NCBI GenBank assembly: GCA_017643365.1
Contig: JAEPNO010000003.1
Span: 1 to 64,000, forward strand
From: Balneolaceae bacterium
GTDB lineage: Bacteria > Bacteroidota > Rhodothermia > Balneolales > Balneolaceae
DNA: 64,000 nt
Direction of reading: 5' to 3'
Shown here: positions 31,182 through 41,930 of the stretch, piece after piece
How positions within the stretch are numbered: the stretch's first letter is position 1
How the letters are laid out: each line of letters begins with the position of its first letter
The notes under the pieces: generated by a model
Database searches by the model: none
The model's input: only the letters and a program-made list of their open reading frames with translations
Told to the model about the DNA's origin: nothing
Position numbers and translations under genes: made by a program

Positions 31182-31209
31182 AAAAGCCTTACTTTCCAGT
31201 AAGGCTTTT
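31182..31209 (-). terminator. Rho-independent terminator of the motor operon
   Basis: AAAAGCCTTACT pairs with AGTAAGGCTTTT over a 4-base loop, a perfect 12-bp stem with a T run on the minus strand (TTTTTATTTT). It lies about 75 bases beyond the small gene at 31285 and would end the operon that begins near 39.6 kb. Confidence 0.82.
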
Positions 31210-31284: not shown

Positions 31285-31443
31285 TTACGGTTGTTCTTTC
31301 AGATCATCAATACAATCAACCGAATTCAGCAAATCAGAAACCATTGTTCTAATTCCGTTATAGATATAAAACTTCGCCTCTGGATATTCTTCTAATAACA
31401 TCTCTAGCTGCATCATAATATTTCGAATGTCTCTTTCCATCAT
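31285..31443 (-). CDS. Small 52-residue acidic helical protein
   Basis: An ATG at 31443 preceded by GAGAGGG about 7 bases upstream, a clear ribosome-binding site, opens a 52-codon frame (MMERDIRNIMMQLEMLLEEY... ending LKEQP). Met1 and Met2 are both possible starts. The product is a soluble amphipathic helix pair, rich in Glu and Met, with one Cys, and no signal peptide. It lies 87 bases downstream of the SusC-like gene on the same strand and before the shared terminator, so it is probably part of the motor operon. Unknown family. The ribosome-binding site is the main support. Confidence 0.5.
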   Translation of the reverse strand: MMERDIRNIMMQLEMLLEEYPEAKFYIYNGIRTMVSDLLNSVDCIDDLKEQP

Positions 31444-31530
31444 CTGGCCCTCTCAGTAATTGTGTTACTTCTACCGTACCTCTTATTTATCGGTCGAATT
31501 CTGCAATATTAAATACAACTAACGTGCCAG

Positions 31531-34458
31531 TTATATTTTTACACGAAGTGAGCCTCCGAATCTTCGCGCACCTGGACCGGTTAAGTAATCAAATCCTAAG
31601 TTGTTAACCCCTGCCCCATTCGAATTTACATTAGGATCGAAGCCTGTTCCTTCCGGAATATTGTACATTTTCAGAAAGGCATTTTCTACCGAAAAGGAAA
31701 TAATTACCTCTTTTAAACCGGTTTTTTGTATCCAGTTTTGCGGAATTTGATATGAAAAGCCAATGTGTGCAATCCGTAAATGAGTCATGTCGTACACTCT
31801 TAACTCATCCGGACCGAACCCTAGATTATTGAAATAATATTGTTGTTTACTTATTTCGATTTCGTTTGGTGAGCCATCAAATTGCACTCCATCGATTACA
31901 AAGGTTTCATCTCTATCAAGTGTTGAGCTTACCAAACCCCTACCAATTAACGACCCAATCCAAGCGCTGTACATGTCGCCACCTTGTTGATAATCCACTT
32001 GCAGCGTTACAGTAAAATTTTTGTAATCAAATTGTTGAAGTACAGCTAGATTCCAATCAGGCACCGGGTTCCCTATAATTGAATTTTGATCGGTTATGTA
32101 ATTCCCGTTTCCATCAATAATAGGTGTTCCTATTGGCACGCTTCGCATATTTGGATCAGCTTGCTGGATTTCGCGAGTTACTCGCAAAATAGTACTACCA
32201 TACATGCTCATATAAGGCTCATTAATTTGTGCCAAATTCCCTCTAAAACCCTGGCTCTGCCCTAACTGAATAGCATTAAAGGTACCTGTGTATTCTTTAA
32301 CATCGGCTTTAGAAGTGCTGAAATTTGACGTTATTTGCCAGTTTACTTTGCCCTGAAGAGGTATGATTTTGGCCTGTGCGTCTAATCCTTCTACTTCCAT
32401 TTCAAGGAGATTATCTAAAATGGAGCTATATCCTAAACTAGGATTTACAGCAATTCTGGAGATTAAATCGGTATGAGTTCGATTGTAATATTTAACCGAC
32501 AATAAAATGCGATTATTTAATAATCCGATGGTTGAAGCCCATTGTTTTTCTATGGATCGTTCTGGCTTTAAATCTTCATTAAAACCAACACTTGCACGAT
32601 CTTGAACAAGTATTTCCAGTTCGGTTAAGATTGATCTCCCCGAGGTTAGATAAGAGTAGGAAATATCGAAGTAGCTGAATAATTCGGAGTTGGTTGATAG
32701 CAAATTTGTTGGTGTAATTCCAAGCGATACCGACGGGTAGGTAGCTTCCATATCCTGTTGATTTAAAGATTGGTTCCATTGCTTTCGTAAGCCTATTGAG
32801 CCATACACCCATTCATCGAAATTGAGATCAAATGTTCCAAAAGCTCCGACAGAACGCCTCTCAAATTCGCGTTCCATCAATTCGCTTGTAAATGAGTTTG
32901 TTGAACTTTGAACTCGAAAATTATCATGTTCAAATACCCCAAACCTCATGATATCAGTACTTTCAAGGCCTTTTTCATCAATATTTTCACTTATATAATG
33001 AGCTCCTAAATTAATCTCTGATTTCAATCTTTCAGAAAAATCAGGGCGGATAGTGGCCATTGCAAAATTATCAAGCAGTGTTCTGTCAACTTCTATTGTT
33101 TGATATAAGCCAAGAGTATAAGGGAAATTAAAGGTGCCATTTGGATTGAGTTTATACTCCTGATTCTCGTCATAACTATCAAAAGTATATTTGTAGAAAA
33201 ATTCGAATTGATTTGATGGTTTAAAAGTAAGTGCTGTTTTTCCGAGAATTCTATTTGTCTCGTTGGTTGTTGAAGCACTATTTGCAAGCCATTTAGGGTG
33301 TATTATATCTGGGCGATAATAAAGGAATCCATCATTATCGGGGTTTATACTTGGCAAATCTAAATCGATAGACCGCGGCGTAAAAAACAGATACGTGAAA
33401 GCGCCGGTTGTAGCTCCGCCTTCTACCACGCCACTCCCGCTCCCCGCCGATTGTGGTGGCATTTTAACATCAGTGAACAAAAATTGAACGCTTGAGTTGC
33501 CACTTACTTTATTTGTTATTTGATAACTTGCAGACGTACCAAAACTGTTTTTAAGTGTTGAGTTGTTAGGGGTAAAACCGTCTTCTTGATTTCCTGAGTA
33601 GTTAAAACTCCATGTGGTTTTACCTTTTTTGTAATTCACATCGATGAAAGAGCGGGTTGCTATCCCATTTCTGAAATACGATTCAATGGGTGTGTTTTTG
33701 GCTTCATATCGATAAACCTGCGTTGAATAATCCGGCGCATCATTTGAAGTAAAATTGTAATAGCCATAAGGATGATCTACCAGAACAGTGCCGTCATCAT
33801 CTAGACCATTGTAATTAGATGGGAAGTTTGCCGGGTCTTGGCTATCAAACGGAGCACCCCATGTACTATAAAATGCTCCATATTGTCCATTAAACCCTAT
33901 CCCATATTTATTTTGATAATCGGGCATGCTCGATATCGAAATTGAGTAAACACTTTGATCAATGTTGATCTCCAATCCCTCATTAAACTGCTCCCTTGCA
34001 CTTCTGATGGTGTTTATTTCAATTACACCATTCGTAGCTTCTTCTCCATAAATAATTGTGCCTTCCAATGAACTAAGTACACGAACATTGATAATTTCGG
34101 ATGGATGGATGTCGAAAGATCGATTAGGAGTAACTAGCGTGCCTCCGCCATTAAAAGCTGTACTGTTAAAGTTACTAGCTCCATCAAAACGAATTCCATC
34201 AATAATGATAAGTGGATCGCTTGCCGCATTTAAGCTCGAATAACTACGAATAACGGCATTCGTTCCAGTTCCCGAAACTCCGCCTGTTGATGTAATTTTT
34301 AACCCGGGAGCAAGCCCTGACAAGACTCTTAGGAAATCGGCCTGAGTTACAGCTTTTGAAGTAATGATATTTGTTGAATCAGGGCTTGTTTGAGATTTTA
34401 CCTGATTTATTCCGAAAAAGAGAAGTAAGAGCGACAGTAGAAGTTTTTTCATAGGCAT
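31531..34458 (-). CDS. SusC-like TonB-dependent outer-membrane receptor, no SusD partner
   Basis: A 975-residue protein: signal peptide (LLLSLLLLFFGINQVKSQ), a plug domain from about 30 to 155 (VLSGLAPGLKITSTGGVSGT, DPLIIIDGIRFDG, VRVLSSLEGTIIYGEEATNG), then a large beta-barrel ending in GARRFGGSLRVKI, with the terminal hydrophobic strand of outer-membrane barrels. The plug motifs match SusC/RagA proteins, but the usual N-terminal carboxypeptidase-regulatory domain is missing and no SusD gene follows. It lies 45 bases downstream of motB on the same strand, so it appears to be part of the motor operon rather than of a sugar-uptake locus. Confidence 0.82.
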   Translation of the reverse strand: MPMKKLLLSLLLLFFGINQVKSQTSPDSTNIITSKAVTQADFLRVLSGLAPGLKITSTGGVSGTGTNAVIRSYSSLNAASDPLIIIDGIRFDGASNFNSTAFNGGGTLVTPNRSFDIHPSEIINVRVLSSLEGTIIYGEEATNGVIEINTIRSAREQFNEGLEINIDQSVYSISISSMPDYQNKYGIGFNGQYGAFYSTWGAPFDSQDPANFPSNYNGLDDDGTVLVDHPYGYYNFTSNDAPDYSTQVYRYEAKNTPIESYFRNGIATRSFIDVNYKKGKTTWSFNYSGNQEDGFTPNNSTLKNSFGTSASYQITNKVSGNSSVQFLFTDVKMPPQSAGSGSGVVEGGATTGAFTYLFFTPRSIDLDLPSINPDNDGFLYYRPDIIHPKWLANSASTTNETNRILGKTALTFKPSNQFEFFYKYTFDSYDENQEYKLNPNGTFNFPYTLGLYQTIEVDRTLLDNFAMATIRPDFSERLKSEINLGAHYISENIDEKGLESTDIMRFGVFEHDNFRVQSSTNSFTSELMEREFERRSVGAFGTFDLNFDEWVYGSIGLRKQWNQSLNQQDMEATYPSVSLGITPTNLLSTNSELFSYFDISYSYLTSGRSILTELEILVQDRASVGFNEDLKPERSIEKQWASTIGLLNNRILLSVKYYNRTHTDLISRIAVNPSLGYSSILDNLLEMEVEGLDAQAKIIPLQGKVNWQITSNFSTSKADVKEYTGTFNAIQLGQSQGFRGNLAQINEPYMSMYGSTILRVTREIQQADPNMRSVPIGTPIIDGNGNYITDQNSIIGNPVPDWNLAVLQQFDYKNFTVTLQVDYQQGGDMYSAWIGSLIGRGLVSSTLDRDETFVIDGVQFDGSPNEIEISKQQYYFNNLGFGPDELRVYDMTHLRIAHIGFSYQIPQNWIQKTGLKEVIISFSVENAFLKMYNIPEGTGFDPNVNSNGAGVNNLGFDYLTGPGARRFGGSLRVKI

Positions 34459-34503
34459 TTTAGCTTCAATAACTGAAGCGACGACAGTTTAGTGCCTTGA
34501 AAA

Positions 34504-35196
34504 TTAGTTAGATGCTACTTGATAATAAATACGTACAACAATTCTTCTATTCAATGCTCTGTTTTCGATGATATTTCTACCTTCTTCATCCACATGAGGA
34601 ACTACCGGCTTCGTATCTGCATATCCTGAGGCTTTTAATCTTTCAGCTTCAATACCTTCTTCAATAAAGTATTTTACTACACCTGATGCTCTTGCAACAG
34701 AAAGCTCCCAGTTTGATGGGTAGATGGGAGTATTGATGGGTACATTATCGGTATGACCTTCTACATCCACATTGAACTTATAGAAATCCAGTTCGTTCAT
34801 TGCCTGTGTAACTTTATCGATAATTACCTGTCCGGTGGGTAGTAACTCAGCTTCACCTGATTGGTAAAACGAACTACTGGAGAAGTATAATTTGATACCG
34901 TCACGATCGAGGGTAATATCAACTAAGCCTTGAGTTTTTTCAACGGCTAGTAACGAATCCAAATCTGCTTTTACTTCAGCAAGAGGGGTACGAACATCTT
35001 CTTGTTTCGAAATTTCTGATCGTAAACCTTGCTTCATTTGCTCCCAGAGATTTAAATCTACATATGACACAGCTATCAGCATTGCAAAAAAAGCAAGTAA
35101 CAAGGTAATCATATCACTATAAGTGAGTAACCATTCCTGATCCTCAACATGCTCTTCCTTTATATCAGAATTTCCGCCGTATTCGCGTTTAATCAC
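34504..35196 (-). CDS. motB: MotB-like stator protein with OmpA-type peptidoglycan-binding domain
   Basis: A 230-residue protein: a cytoplasmic N-tail, one membrane helix starting WLLTYSDMITLLLAFFAMLI with the ion-carrying Asp at residue 28, a linker (about 55-90) including a plug-like helix, and an OmpA/MotB domain (about 100-225) with VEGHTDNVPI, SNWELSVARA and NRRIVVRIYY. All essential MotB residues (Asp in the pore, peptidoglycan-binding Asp/Arg) are present. Length is short of E. coli MotB (308). It follows motA by 13 bases. With MotA it should form an ion-driven 5:2 stator anchored to peptidoglycan. Ion specificity cannot be told. Confidence 0.9.
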   Translation of the reverse strand: MIKREYGGNSDIKEEHVEDQEWLLTYSDMITLLLAFFAMLIAVSYVDLNLWEQMKQGLRSEISKQEDVRTPLAEVKADLDSLLAVEKTQGLVDITLDRDGIKLYFSSSSFYQSGEAELLPTGQVIIDKVTQAMNELDFYKFNVDVEGHTDNVPINTPIYPSNWELSVARASGVVKYFIEEGIEAERLKASGYADTKPVVPHVDEEGRNIIENRALNRRIVVRIYYQVASN

Positions 35197-35209
35197 CGGA
35201 AGCCTCCTG

Positions 35210-36028
35210 TTAGTCTGCTACTTGCTTATTCTTGAAATCTCGTCGTAAATAAGTACTTAATTTATCCTGAATGTAGAAGGATGATTTTTTATCGTTGATC
35301 AACAAAATACCTTCGAGAATAAAATACTCGCGGAACCTGTTAAGTTGAGCTACATTTTTAATTTTCTCTGCAACCGGGTAGAAAATAAACCGAGCCAATG
35401 ATATCCCATAAAGTGTGGTTATCAATGCTGCTGCAAGTCCCGGTCCCATTCCTGAGGGATTTTCAAGTTGACCAAGCATCACAATTAAACCAAATAAAGT
35501 ACCGAACATCCCAAATGAAGGTGCCGCTGCCCCCATTGCACGTAGCACATCAACTACTACCAGTTGCCGAAAATATTGCTCTTCAATATGATTCGCTCCA
35601 AACGACTTAATATCCTCACTTGAATAATTAGTACTCATTAAAGAGAACAAGTAACCGGAAACTTCACCCACATGTTCGTCTTCCAGTTTCGAAAGCGCAG
35701 TTACGCGATTATTTTTAATCTGATCGTTCCAAACAAGCATTTCACCTAGATCAGATTCTAAGGTTTTGGATGATGTTTTAGCTTGGCTGAATAAGTAAAA
35801 TAATCCGGCAAATGCTTGCCCAACATATTTTGGTTGATAGGTAATAAATACAGCATTTAGGATACCACCCATCACTATAAATAAACTAGGAAGGTTTAAA
35901 AACGTGTATTGCGATAGAAAAGGGATGGAACTTAAAACGTTTGTGACGCTGGTGATCTCGGTTACCCCGAAAACCAGAATTCCCACACTAAAAAGTACCC
36001 CTAAAATATTTGTTAACGAAAGTCTCAT
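35210..36028 (-). CDS. motA: MotA-like stator channel subunit
   Basis: A 272-residue inner-membrane protein with four membrane helices (about 7-30, 43-63, 163-186, 197-219) and a large cytoplasmic loop (about 70-160), the MotA plan. The last two helices carry MFGTLFGLIVMLGQL and GPGLAAALITTLYGISLARF, the ion-channel motifs of MotA, including the Thr that faces the MotB Asp. Relationship is to MotA rather than ExbB/TolQ (three helices, shorter). The ATGA overlap of 4 bases with the upstream lipoprotein gene and the 13-base gap to motB show one transcript. The cytoplasmic loop would meet the FliG-like rotor encoded upstream. Confidence 0.9.
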   Translation of the reverse strand: MRLSLTNILGVLFSVGILVFGVTEITSVTNVLSSIPFLSQYTFLNLPSLFIVMGGILNAVFITYQPKYVGQAFAGLFYLFSQAKTSSKTLESDLGEMLVWNDQIKNNRVTALSKLEDEHVGEVSGYLFSLMSTNYSSEDIKSFGANHIEEQYFRQLVVVDVLRAMGAAAPSFGMFGTLFGLIVMLGQLENPSGMGPGLAAALITTLYGISLARFIFYPVAEKIKNVAQLNRFREYFILEGILLINDKKSSFYIQDKLSTYLRRDFKNKQVAD

Positions 36029-36651
36029 TGTCCACCGTCCTCTCGTAGTTCATTAATTAATGTTTCTAATTCCGGAATGCTTGGTACAGGAATATTCGGA
36101 TCCATCTGTACGGCTTTATTCCAATTTGCCCGAGCAGCAGTAATATTCTCCATCATAAAAAAGATAGTCCCTTTAAGTGCATAAGCGTCGGCAGTTTCTT
36201 GAATCCGCATCGTTTTTTCAACTTCGGCAAGGGCGTCGTTGTATTCGCCCAGGTAAAATAAATCCTGTGCTTTTCTATAACTCGCTAGCAAAGTTTGAAT
36301 ATCGCGAGCGCGGTTTTTAACCAGAGATGAATCAACCACGATAATGGAATCGGACTCCGTTGGAGTCATTCCTTTCAAATCTAAGTAGAACTCATCTTGG
36401 CTTGGATCAAGAGTTACCTGAATAGCAGAACTTGCATTTCGATAGGTTACGATAACAGGGTTTGGTCGCCTGGTTTCATTTTCCGATTCACCAGAATTCG
36501 AATTATTACTTAATTCCGGAATTGTTTGAATTCCATTCTGTGGCTCTTCCTGAGCTGCTTCAGTTGATTTACAACTATAGCCAGCCATAGCGATCAAAGT
36601 CACTAATAGAATCGATTTAAAATCTAACAACCGCGTGCACACCATATCCAA
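36025..36651 (-). CDS. TPR-containing lipoprotein of the motor operon
   Basis: A 208-residue lipoprotein: hydrophobic signal ending AGYSC, with Cys27 as lipid anchor, then a low-complexity Asn/Glu/Ser linker, a short strand-rich part (about 70-95), and TPR-like helix pairs (about 115-200: YRKAQDLFYLGEYNDALAEV, YALKGTIFFMMENITAARAN). The start overlaps the preceding gene by 35 bases. A downstream TTG is another possible start. TPR lipoproteins act as scaffolds or pilotins for envelope machines. Here it may link the motor to the outer membrane. No family name is certain. Confidence 0.72.
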   Translation of the reverse strand: MDMVCTRLLDFKSILLVTLIAMAGYSCKSTEAAQEEPQNGIQTIPELSNNSNSGESENETRRPNPVIVTYRNASSAIQVTLDPSQDEFYLDLKGMTPTESDSIIVVDSSLVKNRARDIQTLLASYRKAQDLFYLGEYNDALAEVEKTMRIQETADAYALKGTIFFMMENITAARANWNKAVQMDPNIPVPSIPELETLINELREDGGQ

Positions 36652-37702
36652 CCTTATTGTATGTTATTCTGTCGTTGTTGCTAAGTCGAAGCTCCTCACC
36701 GGATAATATCAGACTTGTATAAAACGAGAGACCTAAGTTTTTACTCATATTAAACATGATTCCGGGACGGGCCGTAAACATTTCTCCTTTTGTATTACTA
36801 AGGGGAAGCTGAACGCTGGTATTCAAGTACACCACCATTCTGTAACTATCAATGTCTTCATTTTTTTCAGGTGAAAGTGCCTGATAATAGGTCAAACCAA
36901 AGTTCAACAAGAATAAATTAAATTCATCGGCACGGCGCGCTCTTAAAATATTCACCCCACCCGTAAATCCTATATACGCACTATTCTCTCGGTTTAATGG
37001 CTGCCGATAGGTAAAATTGGCTGCATAATTTAAAACAGGAGTAGTAATCGAGGTATCCTGATTTGCAAAGGATGTATCGGCTCTGAATTTTGAATCTGTT
37101 TGCATCGAACCCGCACCAAATGCTAAAATTAAAGTTTGGCCTTTATCAACTTGTTCAACCACTTCGAAAGGATTGGCGATGAAGCTTTTTGCCCACACTA
37201 TTTCGCGTGATCTTGGATTCATCATTCGAACCGAAAGAATCAGTCCGTCGGGGTTACGGCGTTGTAAACCAACTTCAATTAAGCCATTTACACCATACTT
37301 TTCGGTAACTTCAGCAAGAAATTCAGGCGAAACATCTGCAAGCGATCTTCCTTGAATATTCAATATCTGAAGTGTGCTATCATTCCCCATGATTTTCATT
37401 TTATCATTGGGCTCAAGTTCTGGTGGCGAAAGTACTGTAATACCTGCGTACGTTCGCAGTGAAGACTCAATCTCGCTTCTAATAAATTCAACTTCTTGAA
37501 CAGTAAAGCGCATTGCATTATAGTTCATTTTATATACCGCAACACGGCGAACATTCGCCGGGATGTCGTTCAATTGATCCACCATTTGAAGGGTGATCAA
37601 TCCCATTTGATAAGGCACACCTTCTTCATGGGATTGTGCCTGTAAATTTTCAACTAATCCAAAGGTCAGTATCAGAAAACTAAACAGTACTACTCTTTTC
37701 AT
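36617..37702 (-). CDS. Exported FlgO/CsgG-like protein with C-terminal beta-barrel
   Basis: A 361-residue exported protein (signal peptide ending VENLQAQ at about residue 23). Residues about 30-185 resemble the alpha/beta fold of FlgO/CsgG/LpoB-type proteins: RRVAVYKMNYNAMRFT, then YGVNGLIEVGLQRRNPDGLI and SVRMMNPRSREIVWAKSFIA, the typical pattern of a two-layer sandwich with a GxG...L strand. Residues about 215-361 are alternating amphipathic strands ending in VGYGVHAVVRF, the terminal Phe of an outer-membrane barrel. FlgO proteins belong to flagellar basal bodies of Vibrio and CsgG to secretion pores. The likeness is by pattern only. Three bases separate it from the FliF-FliG gene. Confidence 0.65.
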   Translation of the reverse strand: MKRVVLFSFLILTFGLVENLQAQSHEEGVPYQMGLITLQMVDQLNDIPANVRRVAVYKMNYNAMRFTVQEVEFIRSEIESSLRTYAGITVLSPPELEPNDKMKIMGNDSTLQILNIQGRSLADVSPEFLAEVTEKYGVNGLIEVGLQRRNPDGLILSVRMMNPRSREIVWAKSFIANPFEVVEQVDKGQTLILAFGAGSMQTDSKFRADTSFANQDTSITTPVLNYAANFTYRQPLNRENSAYIGFTGGVNILRARRADEFNLFLLNFGLTYYQALSPEKNEDIDSYRMVVYLNTSVQLPLSNTKGEMFTARPGIMFNMSKNLGLSFYTSLILSGEELRLSNNDRITYNKVGYGVHAVVRF

Positions 37703-37705
37703 TGT

Positions 37706-39565
37706 TTAGCCCTCAGTCTTCATTTTTCTACGAACAGCATAGAGCACCGTTTTTTGTGCATCTTCAATACTAGCTTTTGGTACGTCAGCGGGATTGTCAA
37801 CTTCCGAGAGTATCAATTGCTGCTCACGTTTTGGACGAACTTTTAGAATTTTTTCTCTAACCGCAGCCGGGGCAGTTTTAAGTGCCAAAATCAACGTTTC
37901 TGTTTGAATATCTTCCAACGCACTTTGTACAAAATCATCTTTTACTTTAGGTAGATCATCAAAACCGATAAAGAATTTCTTAATGCGTTTTGCAAGATTT
38001 AAATCCTGCTCGGCAATTGAACGCACATAATCGTCCTGCTCAGAAAGTGGCATGGTCTCTAAAGTGGTTAGAATCGAATCTATACCATCGGCAGCTACGT
38101 ATTTCATGTCCGATACAGACAACGCTTTATTCGAGAAATGGGCAGCAACCTTTTTATACACCGAAATTGGAATATTATTGATCTTACCCATTTTCAACAG
38201 AATAGAAATCCTTTTTTGCTCATCCATTTTTTGGAGGATAACACCGGCTCTTTCTCCCGCAATCTGAGCTAACAAAATGGCTACTAATTCATCCGACTCT
38301 TCTTTAATGAGGTGCAATAACTGCACATCGGTAAGTTGGTATACAAAATCGAAAAGACTTGAGCCGGAATCGGCAGTGCCATTTTTAGAGTTTACCTGCT
38401 GAAGGCTTCTTCTCAGTGCTTTTACTTCATCAATCCTTTCATCAATTGGGATAGAGTCCAGGTTTTGAATAGAAAACTTTACCGATTCGTAATGATCCAC
38501 TTTCAAATGTGGTTCCAGCACATTAATTAATTTCTCATCAACGCTACTTAGTGCCCGAGCCGATCTAATTATTCCCTGCTCGTCATCACTTGCAATCCAT
38601 TGTCCAACCAAATCGGAAACTTTATCGGGATGACTAATGCACGAATTGGTCACATATGTTTTATCCTCTTCATGCTGTGCTAAAGTCTTAGCATCTGGGC
38701 CTTTTGGCTCCTCTTTCGTTTCTGATGCAGGCATTGCCATAGCGGCTTCATAACCAGGCATCGGAGGCATTCTATATTCTTCTTCTCGTTTCGATGGACG
38801 CTTCAATAGTGCCACTAACAAAGCGATTAAAAATAATACACCCAGAATGGCAATTACATATATAAGGTGTTGGGGATTATTCCAATCGATCCCTAAAAAC
38901 ATATTCTTTTCAGGCTCAGCAGTTTCTTGTTGATTCATCGCTGGGTCAAGCAATTCTACCTGCGGCTCTTCTTCTTGTTCAGGCTCTTCTTCTTCAATGT
39001 TTGAACGCCTTGCCAGAGCATCCTGTTCGATGGCACGAGCACTTCTTGGGAAAACTTTTTTCTCAACCGTTACAATATCGCCACGGAACGGATCTGCATT
39101 TGCAATTAAAGAAGTTGCTTCTTCAACAAATTCTACGTCTTCATCACTGTAAGATGTATCAACAAGTACTTTAATATTTAAGCGAGTCAGCCTGAAACGA
39201 GCATCAAACCCGGAGGCTTTTAAACTATCGGTAGTACCATTTGTAGACCTTTGAAGATTAGGTGGTACAAACGGAAGTCCCGGAAGATTTTCGATACGCA
39301 CAGGCTCTTCGCCTTCGATCACTTCATACCCTCTAGGAACCAGCACACGTTCAAGTGAAGCTTTCGCATCTACTATAAAAGTGCCTCGCCGATAGTAATC
39401 GGAAAGAGCGTTATTTAAAATTACCTCGTAATACTGCTCATACTTAGCAGCTTCCTCCTGAACATCGGTAGAAACTACCTGTCCGGGTAATGTTTGGGCA
39501 ATAATACCAGTGCTTAAACAGGTAAATACCAGTACTAATAGCCATTTATGTTTTTTCCCAACCAT
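37706..39565 (-). CDS. FliF-FliG fusion: membrane ring plus rotor protein of a non-flagellar motor
   Basis: About 619 residues from the start at 39565, chosen because it has AGGGG upstream and a proper signal peptide (KWLLVLVFTCLSTGIIAQ). A frame extends 31 codons further to 39658 but lacks these signs. Order: periplasmic part (45-175) like the FliF C-terminal half (LTRLNIKVLVDTS at 126-138, then RGDIVTVEKKVFP 161-173), an acidic linker (188-220), one membrane helix (234-255), a FliG-binding-like helix (SHPDKVSDLVGQWI, 311-324), then a complete FliG: N-like helices (331-392), middle domain (EESDELVAILLAQIAGERAG, 422-441), C domain with KRIKKFFIGFDDLP (526-539), LILALKTAPAAVREKIL (558-574) and AQKTVLYAVRRKM. 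Arg570 aligns with an E. coli FliG torque residue. First gene of the motor operon. Confidence 0.85.
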   Translation of the reverse strand: MVGKKHKWLLVLVFTCLSTGIIAQTLPGQVVSTDVQEEAAKYEQYYEVILNNALSDYYRRGTFIVDAKASLERVLVPRGYEVIEGEEPVRIENLPGLPFVPPNLQRSTNGTTDSLKASGFDARFRLTRLNIKVLVDTSYSDEDVEFVEEATSLIANADPFRGDIVTVEKKVFPRSARAIEQDALARRSNIEEEEPEQEEEPQVELLDPAMNQQETAEPEKNMFLGIDWNNPQHLIYVIAILGVLFLIALLVALLKRPSKREEEYRMPPMPGYEAAMAMPASETKEEPKGPDAKTLAQHEEDKTYVTNSCISHPDKVSDLVGQWIASDDEQGIIRSARALSSVDEKLINVLEPHLKVDHYESVKFSIQNLDSIPIDERIDEVKALRRSLQQVNSKNGTADSGSSLFDFVYQLTDVQLLHLIKEESDELVAILLAQIAGERAGVILQKMDEQKRISILLKMGKINNIPISVYKKVAAHFSNKALSVSDMKYVAADGIDSILTTLETMPLSEQDDYVRSIAEQDLNLAKRIKKFFIGFDDLPKVKDDFVQSALEDIQTETLILALKTAPAAVREKILKVRPKREQQLILSEVDNPADVPKASIEDAQKTVLYAVRRKMKTEG

Positions 39566-39819
39566 TTCAAACCCCTGTAGAGTAAGTTGATGCCTGTAGT
39601 TTTGAATTTTTTTACGAAAAGAGCTTAAGTATGCAGAATTTTTTAGAGTTTTCCACATCTTTCTTCAAAAAACTACATAATTCTACCTATAAAATTCTAC
39701 ACAAAATCACTATATCAACCCAATATGATGTTAAAATACACCTGAAGGACCTTATTTTTGTCGAATTATCCACATTTTTAAATTTATTGTGCTTTAAAAA
39801 GTCTAATGGAGCACTAATT

Positions 39820-41079
39820 CTACCTCGGCATAGATTTTAGCGTTAAATTTGCCAACTTTTCTTCTAGATAGGCCCTCTCAAACCGAGTTTTACTATACTC
39901 TATTGCTACCGTGTAATAAGATTTAGCTTTTTCAAGCTCGCCTATTTTTGTATGAACTCTTCCTAAAGCAGCAAATAGTACTGAAAATTGATTTGAAGAT
40001 TTCGATTCCAGCTTCTTTAAAAGAATTAGGCTTTTATCAACTTCTCCATGTTCGCAAAGTGCGATTGCTAATCCAGTTTCAACTTGGATTGAATCATCGA
40101 ATGAAAGTAAATGATGATACAAATCTATGATTCTCTCCCAATCGGTATCAGCATATGTGCTGGCTGTGCAGTGGATTGACGCAATACCAGACTCAATATG
40201 GAATCTGGACAGTGTATCAGTTTTTCTTGATAACTTTTGATGCGTTAGCCCTCGGTGGATGAGCTCTTTGTGCCAAAGTTCACGGTTTTGATCTTCAATA
40301 CTAATTGGTGTCCCTTTGGCATCTACTCTTGCTTCAAAGCGAGCGAATTGAAACAGCATCAAAGCGAATAATGCATGAGTGGAGGCATTACAAAGTACTT
40401 TATCATCAATTATCCACTCCGTTAATCGCATTGCTTCGAAACAAAGATCAGCGTTTATTTCTTGCTCGCCATTAGTGGTCGAATATCCTTCGTTAAACAT
40501 CAGATACAGAACCATTTCTACAATGGGTAATCTCTGCTGTAAATCCTTATCTGTGAGTTCCAGAAAATAGTTTTGATGTTCTTTTAAAGTAATTTTTGAC
40601 CTATAAATCGCTTTTCTTACTGCAGCCGACCCCATAAAAAAGGCGCTGGCAATTTCTTTATCACCGAATCCACACACCAATTTTAAAGTGAGCATAATTT
40701 GAGCTTTAACGCCCAATAAGGGACTACAACAACCAAATAATGCCTTTAGCTGAATTGCTTTCTCTTGATGATCAATCGCTCCAACTATTTCAGATTCTTC
40801 GCTAAAAGCTGGCACAAACTGTTTATTAAGCTCTTTGTGTCGACCTCTTTTCTTTAACTCGTTTATGGTTTTGTTTGTAGCTACTTTCATCAACCATGCT
40901 TCAGGATTTTCTGGTATCCCTTTCATCCCCCAAAGCCGTAGTGCAGTATAAAAAGTGTCTTGAATTACATCCTCAATCACTTCTGCATTATTGAACCCGA
41001 ACCTACCAATTAAAATAGAAGCCATCTTTCCAGACTGTTGCCTGAAAAGATGGTCGAATAGTTGGTTGTTAACCTTCAT
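39820..41079 (-). CDS. ECF sigma factor of the ECF42 type with C-terminal TPR-like domain
   Basis: A 419-residue sigma factor. Residues 1-75 are sigma-2 (DVIQDTFYTALRLWG, WLMKVATNKTINELKKRGR), about 100-165 are sigma-4 (GFGDKEIASAFFMGSAAVRK) with the DNA-binding helix, and residues about 175-415 form an additional helical TPR-like domain (ILLKKLESKSSNQFSVLFAA, KIGELEKAKSYYTVAIEYSK). This long C-terminus is the mark of ECF42 sigma factors, which have no anti-sigma factor and travel with DGPF/YCII proteins. The YCII gene directly upstream overlaps it by 4 bases, confirming the type. The regulon is unknown. Confidence 0.85.
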   Translation of the reverse strand: MKVNNQLFDHLFRQQSGKMASILIGRFGFNNAEVIEDVIQDTFYTALRLWGMKGIPENPEAWLMKVATNKTINELKKRGRHKELNKQFVPAFSEESEIVGAIDHQEKAIQLKALFGCCSPLLGVKAQIMLTLKLVCGFGDKEIASAFFMGSAAVRKAIYRSKITLKEHQNYFLELTDKDLQQRLPIVEMVLYLMFNEGYSTTNGEQEINADLCFEAMRLTEWIIDDKVLCNASTHALFALMLFQFARFEARVDAKGTPISIEDQNRELWHKELIHRGLTHQKLSRKTDTLSRFHIESGIASIHCTASTYADTDWERIIDLYHHLLSFDDSIQVETGLAIALCEHGEVDKSLILLKKLESKSSNQFSVLFAALGRVHTKIGELEKAKSYYTVAIEYSKTRFERAYLEEKLANLTLKSMPR

Positions 41080-41420
41080 TTCATTTCGATATGCATAACC
41101 GGCCGAACTTCAACTGATCCTCCCAAATTTAATATTGGGCATCCTTTAGAAAGTTCTGTTGCTTCTTCAAGGCTTTTCGCTTTAATGATATAAAACCCAC
41201 TTACCAATTCTTTTGCCTCGATGAATGGGCCATCAGTAACCATTCTATCTTTCCCACGAACAGAAAAGGAAGCATTTTCTAAAGGTTCGCCAGAATCGTA
41301 GCGGTCGCCAAGTTCAGCAATCCACTGCCCGTGTGCATTTATCTCTTTTTGATATTCCTCCGGCGTCATATTTGCATAACTATCACCAGATTCAAATAAA
41401 ATGAGCATATATTTATTCAT
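41076..41420 (-). CDS. YCII/DGPF-family partner of the ECF42 sigma factor
   Basis: A protein of about 114 residues from the start at 41420, where GGAG is well placed. A longer frame reaching to 41552 would begin in unlikely sequence overlapping a gene on the other strand, and is not needed. The product begins MNKYMLILFESGDSYANMTP and has DGPFIEAKELVSGFYIIKAK, the DGPF motif of YCII proteins. Such proteins probably act as sensors or small enzymes for their ECF42 sigma factor. It is translationally coupled to the sigma gene (ATGA). Confidence 0.86.
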   Translation of the reverse strand: MNKYMLILFESGDSYANMTPEEYQKEINAHGQWIAELGDRYDSGEPLENASFSVRGKDRMVTDGPFIEAKELVSGFYIIKAKSLEEATELSKGCPILNLGGSVEVRPVMHIEMK

Positions 41421-41504
41421 CTCGTCTCCTTTTTTTAATATTGATGTACACCCGTAATACAACTGAATGAAAGGAAACGGGACATCACTTAAAAATGCAA
41501 TGTC

Positions 41505-41930
41505 ATGAATATCAGCACCACAACTTCGCCAACTAACGAAGAAATCGACCAACTGCGTGCCGCTTTAAGGGCTTTCAATCAGTCGGTGACTGGACAAGCT
41601 GAGTATCATCAGATATATATAAAAGCCGAAGACGATAATGGCGAACTGATTGGCGGTGTATTCGGCAAGATAGCCTGGCAATGGTTATACATTGATTTAT
41701 TGTGGGTACATCCGAATCATCGCGAAAGTGGTTTAGGATCCACGTTGATGAACCGTATTGAAAAAGAAGCCAATAAGAATTCGGTGTATGCTTACTACTT
41801 GAGCACCAGCAGTTTTCAAGCTCCTGTCTTTTATCAAAAACTTGGTTATCAAATTTGTGGCGAGATAAAAGATTTGCCGCCGGGCTACGTCACCTATTAT
41901 TTAAAAAAACAGGCGTCAGGATTTAACTAA
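41505..41930 (+). CDS. GNAT-family N-acetyltransferase
   Basis: A 141-residue protein with the GNAT core: GGVFGKIAWQWLYIDLLWVH (about 50-69), the acetyl-CoA-binding HRESGLGSTLMNRIE (about 73-87), and the C-terminal YYLSTSSFQAPVFYQKLGYQ typical of the family. Substrate unknown. It is the only plus-strand gene in a run of minus genes, and its last 15 bases overlap the 3' end of the hybrid kinase gene on the other strand. Its start lies 85 bases from the YCII start, so the two share an intergenic control region. Confidence 0.85.
   Translation: MNISTTTSPTNEEIDQLRAALRAFNQSVTGQAEYHQIYIKAEDDNGELIGGVFGKIAWQWLYIDLLWVHPNHRESGLGSTLMNRIEKEANKNSVYAYYLSTSSFQAPVFYQKLGYQICGEIKDLPPGYVTYYLKKQASGFN

Follow-up and report, generated by a model that had tools for sequence, protein, structure and literature searches.

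A conserved FliF-FliG and MotAB operon of Balneolaceae as a candidate rotary motor independent of the flagellum

We analysed a 64,000-nucleotide stretch of DNA from a Balneolaceae bacterium (GCA_017643365.1, contig JAEPNO010000003.1, positions 1 to 64,000), referred to here as the window. The seven genes of a proposed motor operon lie on its minus strand at 31285-39565, separated in order by 3 bases, an overlap, an overlap, 13, 45 and 87 bases. Re-reading of the open reading frames returned the same genes, coordinates and spacing as an earlier, model-made reading of the sequence (the original prediction), and the terminator that it placed after the operon corresponds to a strong terminator-like hairpin. 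The start of the fusion gene was set at 39565 because Met32 of the longest reading frame is invariant among relatives. Purifying selection acts on each of the seven genes, as judged by comparison with a locus from the same genus (dN 0.02-0.16, dS near-saturated). The features, all on the minus strand, are listed below.

37706..39565, minus strand: fusion, the FliF-FliG rotor protein, 619 aa (longest reading frame begins at 39658, conserved start at 39565)
39014..39475, minus strand: fusion, FliF RBM3-like (S-ring) periplasmic domain with the FliF 'RGD' motif (profile-profile E=5.5e-7)
38798..38866, minus strand: fusion, transmembrane helix (helix in the structure model; hydrophobic sequence)
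38579..38656, minus strand: fusion, FliF C-terminal tail joined directly to FliG (tail slice E=9.4e-7)
38108..38323, minus strand: fusion, FliG_M domain, with the FliM-binding EHPQ changed to ESDE (Pfam 5.3e-8; alignment with flagellar FliG)
37718..38020, minus strand: fusion, FliG_C torque domain, with the Arg281 equivalent and acidic 289 kept (Pfam 1.1e-20; alignment)
36617..37702, minus strand: outer-membrane protein, core component, 361 aa with export signal
37169..37612, minus strand: outer-membrane protein, LpoB/TolB-N-like (CsgG-type) periplasmic domain (VIA-align Z 10.8 to LpoB, rmsd 3.3, 124 aligned)
36620..37150, minus strand: outer-membrane protein, OmpA-like barrel of 8 strands (VIA-align Z about 14-16 to OmpA/OprF/NspA)
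36025..36651, minus strand: TPR lipoprotein, TPR matches and lipobox Cys27 (start TTG 36651 or ATG 36645)
35210..36028, minus strand: MotA, flagellar-type stator subunit with two conserved channel prolines
34504..35196, minus strand: MotB, stator subunit with channel Asp28, plug and OmpA-like peptidoglycan-binding domain (GHTD..NWELS..R)
31531..34458, minus strand: SusC/RagA-like outer-membrane protein, accessory (TIGR04056 2e-73)
31285..31443, minus strand: 52-aa protein, accessory (94% identity within the same genus)
31182..31209, minus strand: terminator-like hairpin with a 12-bp stem and a T tail, closing the operon

A scan of GTDB species genomes gave 16 named loci, of which 15 bear the name Balneolaceae or Balneola and the remaining one 'Rhodothermia bacterium'. 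The neighbourhood of the FliF-FliG protein is the same throughout: the order fusion, outer-membrane protein, TPR lipoprotein, MotA, MotB (type A) is found in the window and in 16/16 named relatives. The SusC-like and 52-aa genes were present in the window and in the same-genus locus only and were absent from the 15 other named loci; both were rejected as core parts, and the seven-gene system of the original prediction is thereby reduced to a conserved core of five genes, carried by marine Balneolaceae. The SusC/RagA-like assignment itself scored 248 bits, below the TIGR04056 cut-off of 368. Of 394 genomes sampled across the phylum, 22 carried the fusion, and the fusion-profile scores were bimodal (fusions at E <1e-148, flagellar FliG at >1e-34). 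A family of another class (f39) has these five kinds of component too, in the order outer-membrane protein, TPR lipoprotein, MotA, MotB, fusion, and its outer-membrane protein is homologous by profile to that of type A (E=2.5e-7).

The FliG part of the fusion was found directly by the FliG_C and FliG_M models. Of the profiles against which the fusion had been proposed to be checked, these two match and YscJ_FliF_C does not pass its cut-off with a single sequence (E=0.08), the FliF half being too divergent. The FliF assignment came from profile comparison, where the fusion matched flagellar FliF at E=3.7e-8 (hhalign), so the predicted FliF-FliG fusion is upheld on both sides. Tested as slices, the periplasmic part matched only the FliF periplasmic part and the transmembrane-plus-tail slice matched only the FliF tail, each at the E-value listed above, with unrelated controls at 0.0085 or higher. 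A profile of 21 fusion sequences matched FliG structures (2e-40), a FliG N-terminal-domain entry (1.9e-4) and the FliF MS-ring (0.006). The 'RGD' motif (R192-G193-D194) is invariant in 21 relatives. In flagella the FliF C-terminal tail is the FliG-binding helix. As read from its sequence, the fusion is a FliF RBM3 domain, a transmembrane helix and this FliG-binding tail running straight into FliG, with FliF RBM1 and RBM2 missing. The structure model of the fusion has a mean pLDDT of 55 and is unreliable in the periplasmic and FliG_M parts; therefore only its FliG match was used (FliG_C region against FliG structures, 9e-8, Foldseek).

Alignment with flagellar FliG showed which functional residues are kept. 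The FliM-binding motif EHPQ is intact in each of the 7 flagellar FliG but changed in 17/17 fusions, and the fusion also has a shorter FliG_N region, so the earlier description of complete FliG domains was too strong. Position 281, a torque residue, is basic in all FliG aligned (Arg kept, Lys in type D). Position 289 is acidic in the fusions of types A-C, and the acidic 288 is replaced by Ser in type A. The MotA partners of these residues in the flagellum (R90/E98, facing FliG D288-D289/R281) are rearranged in the alignment, and an equivalent of Glu98 is not obvious.

The two stator genes were readily recognised (MotA: MotA_ExbB 1.2e-18; MotB: OmpA 6.5e-16, MotB_plug 1.1e-13). The window MotA is closest to MotP/PomA/MotA models (5e-32), with TolQ at just 1.3e-3. 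Equally, a profile of the MotA set from the non-flagellar operons matched flagellar MotA at 8e-48 to 1e-26 and TolQ/ExbB at 3e-11 to 5e-6. By these comparisons the MotA of the operon is of the flagellar type with four predicted transmembrane helices, not of the ExbB/TolQ type. The channel residues singled out in the original prediction are in place: both channel prolines of MotA are kept, and the MotB channel Asp, together with the peptidoglycan motif, is invariant in every operon type. MotA and MotB adjoin the FliG-bearing fusion in nearly every complete locus examined.

The outer-membrane protein received no family name from the sequence family libraries searched, and sequence search gave no match to CsgG. 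Its structure model (pLDDT 75) has an 8-stranded OmpA-like barrel and a periplasmic LpoB/TolB-N-like domain, and a CsgG-type fold relation is suggested by this model only. The label 'FlgO/CsgG-like' given to it previously was thus close for the N-terminal domain but missed the barrel. The neighbouring gene is, as predicted, that of a TPR lipoprotein, with TPR family matches and a lipobox Cys (Cys27 in the window) that is invariant in 21 relatives across operon types A-C.

A second fusion is encoded in the window genome at C11:291-294 kb, in an operon of different composition (type B; L005:2457-13763, in the window genome C11:285-297 kb) whose synteny is kept in many Balneolaceae. Its order is pilin-like proteins (DUF4402-type), a chaperone-like protein, an usher-like protein with a TPR tail, the fusion, a TPR lipoprotein, MotA and MotB. 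The type B MotB has a long C-terminal extension with SPOR-like repeats, as assigned by sequence reading. Other Balneolaceae share this arrangement, as do an order-mate family and a single genome of family f39. In that genome (G410, L102:902-12122) a complete pilus-like and motor operon lies within an otherwise five-component family, which may reflect transfer or an old origin. Types A and B occur together in 9 genomes (Fisher p=9e-5, relatedness ignored), and a fusion-positive, FlhA-negative genome (G159) has both. Matches of the chaperone and usher candidates were weak (PapD_N in 2/7, TcfC E-set in 2/7). The 1000-aa protein of type B was also tried as an usher against profiles of four E. coli K-12 ushers and did not match (P 1.7%; EcpC 0.2%). 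The names usher and chaperone are therefore used here for putative functions, as a lead and not as a result. A stand-alone FliF-like RBM3 protein of 343 aa, with no FliG, was found beside usher-like and chaperone-like genes in an order-mate (G108, L101:8857-13649). No MotAB genes lie near it, and the ring protein can therefore apparently work motorless.

Taken together, we consider it likely (a probability of about 0.7) that the product of the operon is a rotary motor, ion-driven and independent of the flagellum, made from a flagellar rotor and stator and delivering work to an outer-membrane module. MotA5-MotB2 units would be held to the peptidoglycan by MotB, with ions passing Asp28, and would push the FliG_C torque domains in a ring built from FliF-FliG fusion subunits. 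The periplasmic S-ring (RBM3) would thereby be turned or strained and would act across the periplasm on the TPR lipoprotein and on the outer-membrane barrel protein with its LpoB/TolB-N-like domain, so that mechanical work would be passed to the outer membrane or the cell surface. In type B the partner may be the chaperone/usher-like pilus set, and the object moved a pilus-like fibre. Genes for a switch, export gate, rod, hook or filament were not found in the operon. Since FliM/FliN binding is lost, no direction switch would be expected; likewise, lacking RBM1 and RBM2 and with no FlhA, such a ring would have neither room nor need for an export gate. The original prediction had proposed a rotating ring acting on the envelope or surface; its link between rotor, stator and envelope parts is borne out by the independence from flagella, the separate clade and the dedicated outer-membrane protein and lipoprotein, but rotation is still inferred, and the biological role can only be suggested. 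Several points speak against a motor: the FliF part is RBM3 only, the outer-membrane partner differs among operon types, confidence in the periplasmic model is low, and the second charge pair between stator and rotor is not conserved in a simple way (288 being Ser in type A, with no obvious MotA Glu98).

The operon could instead be an accessory rotor and stator set for the genome's own flagellum, with whose parts its proteins are homologous. The statement that no flagellum genes are present holds for the window, but a genome-wide search located a separate flagellar cluster on contig C50 with FliF (552 aa), FliG (344 aa), a FliH-like protein, MotA, MotB, FlhA and two FliM/N-type proteins. The operon does not fill a gap in this cluster, which has its own FliF, FliG and MotA. 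FlhA and FliM/N are both absent in 14/22 fusion-bearing genomes of the phylum sample, and no FlhA or FliM/N was found in 10 of the 16 fusion-bearing Balneolaceae genomes. Whether a genome has the fusion bears no relation to flagellar FliG, which occurs in 6/16 fusion genomes and 12/29 others among 45 Balneolaceae genomes (Fisher p=1, relatedness ignored). In a tree, 17 fusions group by their FliG parts into a single clade that excludes 7 flagellar FliG, among them those of the window genome and of E. coli (support 100/100, long branches flagged). With the FliM-binding motif lost as well, an accessory role appears very improbable, and these comparisons support an operon that is flagellum-independent rather than a displaced flagellar piece.

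A Tol-Pal-like envelope motor deserves more weight, and we regard it as unlikely but worth serious consideration. Ion flow would here move or load a complex linked to the outer membrane and the peptidoglycan, serving outer-membrane constriction, lipoprotein placement or control of wall synthesis via the LpoB-like domain. The LpoB/TolB-N fold, the TPR lipoprotein and the peptidoglycan-binding domain of MotB would all fit, and type A has no conserved filament or adhesin gene next to it in the loci examined. However, the window genome has separate Tol/Exb-type stators, such a task needs no full FliG torque ring, and the sister operon type is linked to pilus-like genes. Less probable again is a non-rotating scaffold or sensor, in which the ring would be a periplasmic platform and MotAB would just gate ions or report load. 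The stand-alone FliF-like protein of the order-mate speaks for it, but the FliG-bearing loci nearly always have adjoining MotA and MotB, and the channel Asp and torque residues are kept.

The rotary motor that we favour was compared with known ion-driven systems. With the flagellar motor (MotAB/PomAB/MotPS) it shares the FliF RBM3, transmembrane helix and tail, FliG_M and FliG_C, a four-helix MotA, and a MotB with the Asp, plug and peptidoglycan-binding domain. It differs in the missing RBM1/2, the fusion of FliF to a FliG with a shortened FliG_N and no FliM-binding motif, the lack of FliM/N, export gate, rod, hook and filament, the presence of its own outer-membrane barrel and lipoprotein, and its occurrence in genomes without flagella. 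The GldLM (PorLM)/GldKN system, found in the same wider bacterial group, is alike in idea, being a 5:2 ion-driven motor that acts across the periplasm on an outer-membrane-associated structure; in the operon, however, the stator is MotAB and the rotor FliF-FliG. The GldL model TIGR03513 had no match in the window genome and a weak one in 1/22 genomes, although it may be too narrow, and no control genome matched. Gliding is unreported for Balneolaeota and Rhodothermaeota (PMC5167729); therefore a gliding role is not assumed and no phenotype is claimed. The Agl-Glt system of Myxococcus likewise couples a MotAB-class stator to envelope proteins, outer-membrane proteins included; its description mentions no FliF/FliG rotor (PMC13104615), and AglRS is placed in a generic, non-flagellar stator clade (PMC12505986).

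Tol-Pal and ExbBD-TonB also perform ion-driven work across the periplasm, with an outer-membrane partner carrying a TolB-N-like domain and, in the genus of the window, an adjoining SusC-like receptor; unlike these, the operon has a flagellar-type MotAB and a rotor, and neither TolA nor TonB. Zorya (ZorAB) is a further MotAB-like stator outside flagella, and the operon MotB resembles ZorB (1e-19), whereas the operon has a FliF-FliG rotor and outer-membrane parts; no match to ZorA, ZorC, ZorD or ZorE was found among its proteins. Type B resembles chaperone-usher pili in its chaperone-, usher- and pilin-like genes, with weak sequence support, set beside related motor genes. We know of no classical chaperone-usher system with a rotary motor.

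A FliF-FliG and MotAB system outside flagella was not found in the open-access papers searched, and as far as these show the components are known and the assembly would be new. Its core probably works much as the flagellar motor does, and hence it would be a variant of familiar machinery. Whether the operons make up a separate, undescribed class of rotary machine seems to us evenly poised. Such a class would comprise a FliF-FliG/MotAB motor with no switch, descended from flagella or sister to the flagellar motor, which occurs in a single phylum as several types of operon and powers structures of the outer membrane or the surface; for one of these types the structure would be a chaperone/usher-like pilus. 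Among published questions, the closest one left open asks why rotor genes are retained where filaments are missing (PMC12199754). The operon is a concrete candidate answer, with conserved rotor, stator and outer-membrane parts and no export or switch genes. It also bears on the evolution of the flagellum, because modular-origin models call for a motor able to function in the absence of a type III export gate.

The genes flanking the core vary. Directly upstream of the motor in the window, on the same strand (39820-41552), are an ECF sigma factor-like gene and an adjoining YCII-like gene, both named by sequence reading; relatives do not keep this pair next to the motor. A search for upstream partners shared by type A loci gave none, the neighbours examined encoding A2M plus PBP1C, methylmalonyl-CoA mutase, SMC, PAS, RpoC or T9SS-cargo-like proteins. 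As they vary by lineage, they are taken as chance neighbours. In other genera, the place of the SusC-like gene after MotB is taken by genes of some 120 aa and 350-400 aa (L058:15125-16749, with counterparts at L059, L060 and L042); the copy of 402 aa had no Pfam match.
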